From contig CAMHSB010000001.1 of assembly GCA_946187695.1 (NCBI GenBank), forward strand, positions 237,606-301,605: a stretch of 64,000 nt of DNA, read 5' to 3'. Source of the DNA: an uncultured Bacteroidales bacterium. GTDB taxonomy: Bacteria; Bacteroidota; Bacteroidia; Bacteroidales; Paludibacteraceae. A program made the translations under genes and the position numbers. Shown here one piece after another: positions 31,108-60,369 of this stretch. The notes under the pieces are model-generated. The model was not told the origin of the DNA. It did not search any database and saw only the letters and a program-made list of their open reading frames with translations. Within the stretch, counting starts at the first letter, position 1. Each line of letters starts with the position of its first letter.

Positions 31108-31613
31108 AACGACACACGCAAGAATTGTTATACCACTTATTGCCGGTAATCTTTTGGTTGCTGGCGGTAAGTGGTAGTGTCTTGCCGCTCGTGTGGCTGC
31201 CTTTGCCGACGAACTATCTATGGGGTTTTCTTGTGATTGCTATCGTGCTCACCTGCATTACTATTCTCGGTCGCATCAAGCGCCATGAGAGTTCTGTGGA
31301 GCAATGCTTTCAGGTGGCGATATTGCTGGGAATAGCTTCTTATTGGTTACCGACCGTACTCTTCCTTATGCTCCCTATCTGGGGATATCTCTATTATCAC
31401 CACATCTTTGATTTGCGATCCTTGCTTTCCACGCTCATTGGCTTTGCATTCGTGGCTATTTGGGCGTCGGTATTTATTTATATGGGTTGGATTGCCAATC
31501 CGTGGGCTGACTTCTTTGCCAAAGAAAACGCCTGGGGATGGATTCCCACAGGCGCAATCTTATTCGCTTGGTTCGCTTCTACCATTGCACGACAAAACCT
31601 GCGTGTACGTTGA
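31104..31613 (+). CDS. Hypothetical integral membrane protein
   Basis: Several TM helices; ATGA overlap with M3 gene. Confidence 0.7.
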   Translation: MKRHTQELLYHLLPVIFWLLAVSGSVLPLVWLPLPTNYLWGFLVIAIVLTCITILGRIKRHESSVEQCFQVAILLGIASYWLPTVLFLMLPIWGYLYYHHIFDLRSLLSTLIGFAFVAIWASVFIYMGWIANPWADFFAKENAWGWIPTGAILFAWFASTIARQNLRVR

Positions 31614-33759
31614 TGCCCGCTTGCGGGAAATACCATACATACGTACCGTCTGTACCTCCGTTGTTCACGTATTTCGTGTCGAATAGATTATTGCACTGAC
31701 ATTTGAGCGTAATGTCAGGTATATTGCTGTTCTTTATTGGAAGTGCATATGTAAGCAGCAGGTTAGTCACTGTGTAGGCTTTTAACTGTGCGTTGGCATC
31801 TTCGTAATTGCCAAGGTATTGGCTGCTGACCACCAATGTCTGGATGTCGGCATTGAAGCCTGCGTAGTGAAAACTAAAGGTGTTACCTGCAGTCCAGTCC
31901 GGCGAGAAAGAGATAGTACGCCATGTATTGCCGTCTCTCCAACGGTTACGACTCCATGTGAGGTTGCCTCTCCATGCAAACCAAGGTGTCCAATCGACAC
32001 CAAACTGGAACTCTGCGCCGCAGCGATATGAATCCTTCACGTTCGTGGTGTTCAGATAACCGACACTGCTCACATCGCCTGTGGCGATTAACTGATTGTC
32101 GTAGTCCATGCAATAGAGGTTCAATCCGATGGTCCATGGCATCGCATAGCCGTTCTTGAGTACGCCCGGCGAAGAAAAACTATATCCCAACTCGTAGTCA
32201 AACAGCACCTCCGGCTTCGGATCTTCCGGCGCCGTGTTGGTCACGAAGTTATTACGCGTTGGTTCACGGTGCGCCATGGCAAAAGTGGCAGACAGACGGT
32301 GACCCTTGTTGTCGTATGTCAAACCGGCTTTCGGGTTAAAGAAATGCCAGGTGCGATGTTTGTTAATCGCATCTCTGGCGTCCAAATAACTGGTCTCTTC
32401 GTTATCGCCCCAGATCTTATAGTCCACCAAACGGTATTGTACATCGCCATAGAGGCTCAGTTTCTCGCGGCCGCGGTGCAGTACGCGCCAGTTGGCTTTG
32501 GCATAGATATTGGCGTCTGTCTTCAGGCCGTGACCCTCGTAGTAAGGAATAAAACTACGTTGAACCGAGAGGGTGGTGTCGATGTTGCCGTATTGTAGAC
32601 CGCGATATTGGTTGAAGGCGACACCCATCTGTACATCCACTTTTTCATGCACATATTTCGTGCTTAAGATACCTCCGTAGAAATGGTTACGCAAGCCTTT
32701 CTGGGTGATGTTATCTGCCTCGTAGGTAGTCCAATCCGTAATTAACATCTCGTAAAAACCGGTTCCGTAGGTGTAGTGCGCCGTGGCGGAAAGCGTCCAG
32801 TGCATATTGAAGCGGTGTCCTACATGCAGGTGGACATGGTGTTGCTGGTAGTTATCGGTCTGGTTGTCGTAATAGGCTATATTGCCGTTTTTGTCGATGT
32901 ACTCGCCGGCGGGATTATAGCGTCGCTCGGCTTCGTTCTGACTGTAGGCATGGGCATCATCCACGCCGTACCAAGCCATATAGGTCTTCTCTTTTCCGCC
33001 AAAAGCGGTGAGGGTAACGGCTGTCTTGCTGTTCTGCCAGCCTAACTCACCCTGATAGCTGAGCAGGTCTGACCAGGCGCGGTCGATGTAGCCGTCAGAG
33101 TTTACTTTGGAGAATCGTCCGCCGAGATGCCATGCGCCTTTCTTGGAAGCCCTGTCACCCCAGTAACCGTCTATCTTCACCATCTCGCGGAAGGTATTGT
33201 ACATACCGCCGTTGAAGTCTATTTCGCCGCGTATAGGACCGGGATGTGCGCTTTCGGGAATAGACGCGTCCAAGGTCCTGAGGTTGACACTGGCACCGAA
33301 ACTACTACCGCCATTGGCACTTGTTCCCACACCTCGTTGTACCTGCAAACTGCTCACACCGCTTGCCATATCGGTGAGGTTGACCCAGAAGACTGATTGG
33401 CTCTCGGCATCATTGAGCGGCACCTCGTTCATGGTCATGTTGATACGCGTCTGATCGGTACCGCGCACATGGAAATAGGTGTAGCCTACACCCAAACCGT
33501 CATCTGAGGTCACTACCATCGAAGGGGAGGTACTCAGCAGGTACGGCAGGTTCTGACCCGAGTTATCTCGGTTCAGTTGCTCATGGGTCATCTCCTGCTT
33601 ACTGATAGTGGTTTGCATCACTGGAGCACTTACCACTATATCGGCCATCTGTTTGCCGATAATGGTAATGGTGTCCTCACTCGTCTGCGCAAACGCAGAC
33701 ACAACTAACAAACATGCTGCGATGCAGCATGCTGTTCGATAAGATGATTTTATCTTCAT
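31579..33759 (-). CDS. TonB-dependent receptor, predicted thiamin/TPP uptake
   Basis: Plug motifs YTYFHVRGTDQTRINMTMNEVPLNDAESQSVFWVNL; start at MKIKSSYR; TPP riboswitch immediately upstream. Confidence 0.9.
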   Translation of the reverse strand: MKIKSSYRTACCIAACLLVVSAFAQTSEDTITIIGKQMADIVVSAPVMQTTISKQEMTHEQLNRDNSGQNLPYLLSTSPSMVVTSDDGLGVGYTYFHVRGTDQTRINMTMNEVPLNDAESQSVFWVNLTDMASGVSSLQVQRGVGTSANGGSSFGASVNLRTLDASIPESAHPGPIRGEIDFNGGMYNTFREMVKIDGYWGDRASKKGAWHLGGRFSKVNSDGYIDRAWSDLLSYQGELGWQNSKTAVTLTAFGGKEKTYMAWYGVDDAHAYSQNEAERRYNPAGEYIDKNGNIAYYDNQTDNYQQHHVHLHVGHRFNMHWTLSATAHYTYGTGFYEMLITDWTTYEADNITQKGLRNHFYGGILSTKYVHEKVDVQMGVAFNQYRGLQYGNIDTTLSVQRSFIPYYEGHGLKTDANIYAKANWRVLHRGREKLSLYGDVQYRLVDYKIWGDNEETSYLDARDAINKHRTWHFFNPKAGLTYDNKGHRLSATFAMAHREPTRNNFVTNTAPEDPKPEVLFDYELGYSFSSPGVLKNGYAMPWTIGLNLYCMDYDNQLIATGDVSSVGYLNTTNVKDSYRCGAEFQFGVDWTPWFAWRGNLTWSRNRWRDGNTWRTISFSPDWTAGNTFSFHYAGFNADIQTLVVSSQYLGNYEDANAQLKAYTVTNLLLTYALPIKNSNIPDITLKCQCNNLFDTKYVNNGGTDGTYVWYFPQAGINVHAGFVVQW

Positions 33760-33828
33760 TTCCTTTAACAGCATTATCTGTTCAAGTTCCAAGGGTATAA
33801 TCTCAGCCGAAGCACCCCTATTGGTATG
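33760..33828 (-). promoter_or_regulatory. TPP riboswitch (THI element)
   Basis: Minus strand: AATAGGGGTGCTTCGGCTGAGATTATACCCTTGGAACTTGAACAGATAATGCTGTTAAAGGAA; contains GGGGUGC, CUGAGA, ACCC, GAAC.UGA and AACAG-AUAAUG-CUGUU. Confidence 0.92.
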
Positions 33829-33841
33829 TCGACTGCTGAAT

Positions 33842-34405
33842 TTAGCGAACGCGCTCGCAATAACTACCGTCGCGGGTGTCAATGCGGATGATCTCGCCTT
33901 CGTTGATGAAGAGTGGAACGCGTACTTCTGCTCCGGTCTCAACGGTTGCCGGTTTGAGAGTGTTCGTAGCAGTATCGCCTTTTAGACCCGGCTCCGTATA
34001 GGTCACTGCCAACTCTACTTTGGTCGGGAGTTCTGCGAAGAGCACGGTGTCGCTCGATGCGTCGGAAACAACGTCTACTACCATACCTTCTTTGAGAAAG
34101 TCAACGCCGGTAATCAGATCGTGTCCGATAGGAACTTGTTCGAAGGTCTCGTTGTTCATGAAGATATAGTCCTCACCCTCTTTGTAGAGGAACTGATACG
34201 GACGGCGCTCTACGCGTACATCTTCCAATTTCTCGCCGATATTGAAGCGGCGCTCCAGAACGCGACCGTCCACAACATCTTTGAACTTAACACGCATAAT
34301 GGTGTTGCCCTTACCCGGCTTTACATGCAAAAACTCGATTACAAAATACAAACGGCCGTCCATGCGGATACATACGCCGTTCTTAATGTCTTGACTGTTA
34401 ATCAT
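33842..34405 (-). CDS. efp: Elongation factor P
   Basis: [35 protein letters not shown]...; start reset to MINSQDI (34405). Confidence 0.95.
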
Positions 34406-34457
34406 ATTCGTATAATTTATATATTTTCTTGAAATTCGCTGCAAAATTAGTAAAAAA

Positions 34458-60275: not shown

Positions 60276-60348
60276 GTGTTTTTCATGGTATTAGATTTAA
60301 GGTTAAGTAAAAAGATTGGGTTGTCGGGAGACAACCTTCTTTGTTTTA
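60276..60348 (+). ncRNA. Candidate ~70-nt small RNA
   Basis: Own promoter, 5' hairpin ACCGTG-TTTTT-CATGGT, 3' terminator stem GGTTGTC-GGGA-GACAACC + TTCTTTGTTTT. Confidence 0.45.
60318..60348 (+). terminator. Intrinsic terminator
   Basis: GGGTTGTC GGGA GACAACCT followed by U-rich tract. Confidence 0.7.
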
Positions 60349-60369
60349 TGTAGGTTTCCTTCTTTTTTA

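Follow-up and report, generated by a model that had tools for sequence, protein, structure and literature searches.

The window analysed here is a stretch of 64,000 nt from an uncultured Bacteroidales bacterium of the Paludibacteraceae (assembly GCA_946187695.1, contig CAMHSB010000001.1, positions 237,606-301,605). On its minus strand, the gene for elongation factor P (efp) is followed by a THI-box aptamer and a gene for a TonB-dependent receptor, whose start codon lies inside the aptamer (Table 1). The aptamer match begins 12 nt after the efp stop codon (33844-33842), where the original prediction gave about 15 nt.

Table 1. Features of the efp-receptor region, in window coordinates
Feature	Position	Strand	Basis
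TAATTTTG, probable -7 box of the efp promoter, perhaps also serving the read-through transcript	34442..34449	-	fits TAnnTTTG box
efp (elongation factor P)	33842..34405	-	TIGR00038, 231.7 bits (cut-off 185.8)
THI-box aptamer with variant P4-P5 arm	33744..33829	-	full-length RF00059 match, 51.0 bits
P1 5' strand CCAAU	33820..33824	-	Rfam alignment
P2/P3 arm with pyrimidine-pocket motif CUGAGA (33806-33801)	33793..33819	-	read from sequence
P4-P5 arm CUU-G-AACAG-AUAAUG-CUGUU-A-AAG	33763..33786	-	arm parsing and Infernal alignment
P1 3' strand AAUGA, including start codon AUG (33759-33757)	33756..33760	-	Rfam alignment
TonB-dependent receptor, probable OMthi type, 726 aa	31579..33759	-	Plug PF07715, E 4.3e-7; homologues follow TPP aptamers

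A THI-box aptamer in the receptor leader

No riboswitch class is more widespread than that of TPP. In the receptor leader, cmscan returned a match to the Rfam TPP family (RF00059) that spans the full model length, with an E-value of 2.6e-9 for 351 bases. Its score of 51.0 bits does not reach the Rfam gathering score of 54.3 bits, so a scan of the window at the gathering threshold omits the aptamer, and we rejected such a scan as the sole test because it overlooks this element. A cmsearch run judged against the threshold had been proposed with the original prediction as its check; by that measure the score falls short, while the E-value and the matches across the genus speak for the aptamer. 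The only Rfam family above its gathering score in the window is the FopS small RNA (RF04319), located at 60276-60350 on the plus strand with 73.3 bits.

The leader holds the sole significant TPP match in the genome of the window's organism (2.22 Mb, 96.6% complete). Within the genus, 132 of the 151 species carry a TPP match (E <= 0.1), almost always a single one in the genome, and 33 of the 151 exceed the gathering score. For comparison we retrieved 101 genus loci and parsed 100 aptamers for the counts of P1 pairing and start-codon position; the named relatives are metagenome-assembled genomes labelled Paludibacteraceae or Bacteroidales, commonly of ruminant gut origin. At 87 of the 101 loci an open reading frame of receptor length (at least 600 aa) directly follows the aptamer, and this, together with the matches in 132 species, shows that the leader aptamer is not a chance match. 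Of three exceptional loci that were examined, one carries a gene for a TenA-family protein and the other two genes for a ThiM-type hydroxyethylthiazole kinase.

The THI-box segments listed in the original prediction were all found in place, namely GGGG (33818-33815), CUGAGA, ACCC (33796-33793), GAAC (33789-33786) and the AUAAUG loop (33777-33772), and the receptor ATG at 33759 was confirmed. Both the pyrimidine pocket CUGAGA and the P2 helix GGGG/CCC are present, and P3 consists of only two pairs capped by a UUCG loop; a P3 region of 6-7 nt occurs in 22 of the 100 genus aptamers. CUGAGA is conserved in 97, GGGG in 96 and G60 in 96 of 99 genus aptamers, and L5 is conserved alongside G60 and the pyrimidine pocket. 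The leader is a genuine THI-box aptamer, but to credit it with all core segments was an overstatement, since the dinucleotide through which canonical TPP aptamers touch the pyrophosphate is missing. A search of the open literature found no report of the TPP aptamer variant of this genus.

Loss of the pyrophosphate contacts in the P4-P5 arm

In TPP aptamers, C77 and G78 (these positions and G60 are numbered as in E. coli thiM) form hydrogen bonds with the TPP pyrophosphate and, together with G60, bind a metal ion (PMC7824784, PMC3764141); C77 and G78 are among the most conserved positions of the aptamer (PMC3764141). In the window, J4/5 consists of a single G.A mismatch, the equivalents of C77-G78 are U33768 and U33767, and the pyrophosphate contacts are thus missing. 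The same change was seen in 99 of the 101 genus aptamers, which lack one nucleotide on each side of J4/5 and have a P4-P5 arm shortened by a single base pair, the Infernal alignment placing an identical one-nucleotide deletion on both sides of the arm. The genus arm follows the consensus CYU-G-NNNNN-RUAAUG-NNNNN-A-ARG, and G78 is present in none of its 99 variant arms.

Across 38 distinct arms from the genus and the family, 97.4% of cells pair, and compensatory changes are seen. At the new 61-78 pair, AU, CG, GC, GU, UA and UG are all represented, with a covariation score of 1.12 versus 0.23 when shuffled for genus and family combined, but within the genus alone the result is less decisive, as a slid control scores nearly equally. 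Outside the family, 29 of 30 order-level aptamers read CG at C77-G78. A loss extending to the whole family was considered and rejected, because 7 of the 25 well-parsed family variants read CG at these positions and 16 of the 25 retain G78, which confines the loss to the genus. Since the pyrophosphate contacts are lost throughout the genus, the assignment of TPP as the ligand is doubtful, while the identification of a THI-box riboswitch in the original prediction stands; thiamin or TMP would be candidate ligands.

Among aptamers of the family from outside the genus, 29 of the 31 that precede OMthi are non-canonical, versus 5 of the 24 others (Fisher p 2.4e-8, uncorrected for relatedness and with 14 loci classed by hand). 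Four genomes (G181, G193, G198 and G207) contain one canonical and one variant aptamer each, and in them it is the variant that precedes OMthi. Variant arms were also found upstream of ThiC and ThiG, as identified from the protein sequences, an arrangement that fits TPP feedback equally.

The start codon of the receptor lies within P1

The Rfam alignment places the receptor start codon of the window within the 3' strand of P1, so the aptamer overlaps the ATG instead of ending a few bases before it, as had been proposed. The ATG stands exactly three bases after P4 in 63 of the 100 parsed genus aptamers. All five P1 pairs are present in 49 of these 63, versus 3% in shifted controls, and the whole AUG is paired in 51, mostly with UUCAUU; the P1 5' strand reads UCAUU in 48 of the 63 species, and the 63 aptamers are preceded by 41 distinct upstream 20-mers. 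At most loci outside the genus, in related genera and families, tens to hundreds of further bases precede the start codon, so the layout with the AUG in P1 is derived. With its 3' strand held constant by the start codon, P1 is conserved and does not covary, and for the same reason we rejected it as covariation evidence.

The initiation region is rich in A: relative to the start codon, the 3' end of the aptamer provides this base at -1, -2 and -6 in 63 of 63 and at -3 in 45 of 63. Bacteroidota initiate translation without reliance on Shine-Dalgarno sequences, and mRNA structure and an A at -3 matter for initiation (PMC6847099). A start codon no more than 15 nt from the aptamer end has been used as the mark of a direct translational riboswitch (Barrick and Breaker 2007, PMC2258182); the window AUG, overlapping P1, falls within this distance, and the same position is found in 63 of 100 genus aptamers.

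In the window itself, P1 (CCAAU against AAUGA) retains three of five pairs, U-A, A-U and C-G only; the A of the AUG is unpaired in P1, leaving the start codon two of its three P1 pairs. The P1 of near relatives is likewise non-standard (UUUGAGUU). RNAfold did not separate the free from the aptamer-enforced state, and folding with and without the enforced aptamer was dropped as a test of masking because it did not discriminate. On the window, the in-register P1 was not predicted, and the AUG was unpaired at 0.75 and 0.58 in the two modelled states. A competing 5' hairpin in the window was considered as an anti-aptamer and is not claimed, its z being only -0.78.

Direct translational control is the likely mode of regulation, in which P1 would mask the start codon in a ligand-dependent manner. 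In the window's own species this masking may be weak, as P1 is eroded there. The direct masking of initiation put forward in the original prediction thus survives as likely translational control, but with the AUG inside P1 and with a P1 that, in this species, is poorly preserved.

The receptor and the supply of thiamin

The receptor carries a TonB plug domain and has the length of an outer-membrane receptor; no curated barrel profile matched it above cut-off, and a sequence comparison with proteins of known structure found no relative. Its homologues follow TPP aptamers in the genus, the family and the order. The plug, the length and the aptamer association make the receptor a probable OMthi-type thiamin importer, and thiamin-linked control of this importer is well supported. 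The earlier reading of the receptor as a thiamin transporter is borne out by these homologues across the order, OMthi being a known transporter in B. thetaiotaomicron (PMC5613172).

No ThiC, ThiE or TPK_catalytic domain was detected in the window's genome, which does encode DXS, a TPP-using enzyme, together with ThiL and two PnuC-family transporters; with this combination, the organism is probably auxotrophic for thiamin and dependent on its import. TPK_catalytic (thiamin pyrophosphokinase) was found in none of the 61 genus genomes searched; import of TMP or TPP is a possibility.

Several further observations concern the receptor gene. The AUG of loop L5 (33774-33772) shares the reading frame of the receptor and stands 15 nt before the assigned start, which makes it a possible alternative start. 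At L103 and L104 the riboswitch leaders are near-identical, yet the receptors behind them show 48% and 93% identity to that of the window; receptor alleles may therefore be exchanged while the switch in front of them is conserved. Nucleotides 12-62 of the receptor coding sequence (window 33700-33751; L034-L133) fold unusually well against the two controls used, with a mean z of -2.0, and 54% of the receptor starts lie below z -2, versus 8% of 36 other window genes and 3% inside the same genes; at the start of the window's receptor, CATGCTGCATCGCAGCATG forms an 8-bp hairpin. In four loci (L072, L129, L131 and L116), the first receptor codons contain 7-nt tandem repeats, such as (AAAGTCG)3 and (GTTTATC)4, in which a change of copy number would shift the receptor frame, making phase variation possible.

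The junction between efp and the receptor leader

Among the 101 genus loci, no retrieved locus other than the window has efp adjoining the receptor aptamer, and in 29 sampled genus species efp is followed by other sequence. The outer flanks are the same in relatives and window, with a convergent small ORF and a peptidase gene after the receptor and a marC-type gene on the other side of efp. We rejected a conserved efp-receptor operon, the junction being found, among the genomes sampled, in the window's species only; the efp linkage suggested in the original prediction is not conserved.

The junction looks like a rearrangement breakpoint. Where the relative L136 reads TTTTGCAGTCGATTTGAGTTAGGGG, the window reads TTCAGCAGTCGACATACCAATAGGGG, and the breakpoint thus appears to fall within the former promoter. 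A TAnnTTTG box lies no more than 150 nt upstream of the aptamer core in 33 of the 101 genus loci (background 0.07 per 150 nt); none was found over this distance in the window, in agreement with the scant room for a promoter noted in the original prediction. We infer that the receptor is transcribed by read-through from efp.

Comparison with known systems

The variant resembles the TPP riboswitch of RF00059 in its three-way junction P1/P2/P4, its CUGAGA pocket, its conserved L5 and its thiamin-gene context, and it differs in the P4-P5 arm, one base pair shorter and without the C77-G78 contacts, as well as, in the window, in a P3 of two pairs with UUCG and a score under the gathering score. In B. 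thetaiotaomicron, deletion of OMthi (BT2390) impairs thiamine-dependent growth, and the OMthi operon and transport operons show no response to thiamine at the RNA level (PMC5613172), as would be expected under translational control. BT2390, an outer-membrane TonB-dependent transporter of thiamin, is likewise preceded by a TPP-type aptamer (PMC5613172, PMC7366714), whereas the AUG inside P1 and the altered pyrophosphate arm set our locus apart in a comparison made with BT2390 by description only.

As in direct translational riboswitches, no separate expression platform is present; in the TPP riboswitches of this type, however, the purine-rich 3' end serves as the ribosome binding site (PMC2258182), whereas here the AUG itself belongs to a P1 strand. 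Riboswitch variants with an altered ligand, such as those of the guanine aptamer (PMC9295807) and the spermidine variant of the SAM aptamer (PMC10853860), likewise confine the change to one contact region and coexist with the parent in some genomes at different genes; unlike in those cases, a change of ligand is hypothesised here from sequence.

Proposed mechanism and alternative explanations

On balance, we lean towards a reading in which a THI-box-derived RNA controls OMthi translation through the AUG in P1, with its ligand shifted from TPP and with efp read-through in the window's species. Ligand binding would close the three-way junction and zip P1, whose 3' strand, in the genus, is the initiation region itself, comprising the A-rich stretch and the AUG, so that the aptamer would act as its own expression platform. 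The start codon would then be buried in ligand-replete cells, and the importer would be translated in starved ones. The pyrimidine half of the pocket has been kept and the pyrophosphate half (J4/5, C77-G78) turned into a nearly continuous arm with one G.A mismatch; TPP has probably lost ground as the ligand, in specificity or affinity, with thiamin or TMP its most likely successors. A rearrangement in the window's species would have placed the module directly behind efp; given an eroded P1 and the lack of a recognisable promoter box, expression would probably proceed by efp read-through and repression would probably be weaker. Bacteroides TPP riboswitches that regulate transcription or translation are reportedly the subject of a bioRxiv preprint from 2019 (Costliow, Degnan and Vanderpool), which could overlap with the translational part of this reading.

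A serious possibility, to which we give a little less than an even chance, is an ordinary TPP riboswitch whose compacted J4/5 still binds TPP, about as tightly as before or less so, and which is unusual in its expression platform only. The gene contexts do remain thiamin-related, including ThiC, ThiG, ThiM and TenA, G60, L5 and the pyrimidine pocket are conserved, and some family variants retain the C77-G78 letters. Such a riboswitch would nevertheless have dispensed with G78 in 99 of 99 genus arms, although C77 and G78 bond the pyrophosphate directly (PMC7824784) and are highly conserved (PMC3764141); the presence of canonical and variant aptamers at different genes of one genome also speaks against it.

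Two other explanations concern the window alone. Its element could be decaying, no longer regulating since the rearrangement behind efp, with the receptor expressed constitutively by read-through; a P1 down to three of five pairs, the lack of a TAnnTTTG box within 150 nt, a junction unique to this species and an AUG left largely unpaired by either model (0.75 and 0.58) would all agree with decay. We consider it rather unlikely, given that P2, P3, P4, P5 and CUGAGA are intact, a long retention that is unexpected of a decaying element, that the start codon keeps two of three P1 pairs, and that the near relatives also have a non-standard P1. It is quite improbable that the efp-receptor junction is an assembly error hiding a native leader with its own promoter and P1 5' strand. 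Although the relatives that bear names were assembled from metagenomes and the junction recurs in none of the other genomes sampled, it is internal to a 301.6-kb contig, and GCAGTCGA, just upstream of the aptamer, matches the L136 region (TTTTGCAGTCGATTTGAGTTAGGGG), which argues that native sequence continues across P1.

Returning to the ligand-shifted translational switch, we tentatively extend it to the family, as a possibility suggested by the sequences compared: Paludibacteraceae may possess a variant class that senses thiamin or TMP and not TPP, its pyrophosphate pocket having been lost, of which one genus would fold the OMthi AUG into P1, while canonical aptamers persist at other genes. 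With G78 gone and an importer gene behind it, the genus-wide aptamer is a candidate in which a changed ligand can be tested directly, and its architecture suggests translational switching, in a phylum without Shine-Dalgarno use, through a start codon placed inside the closing helix of the aptamer.
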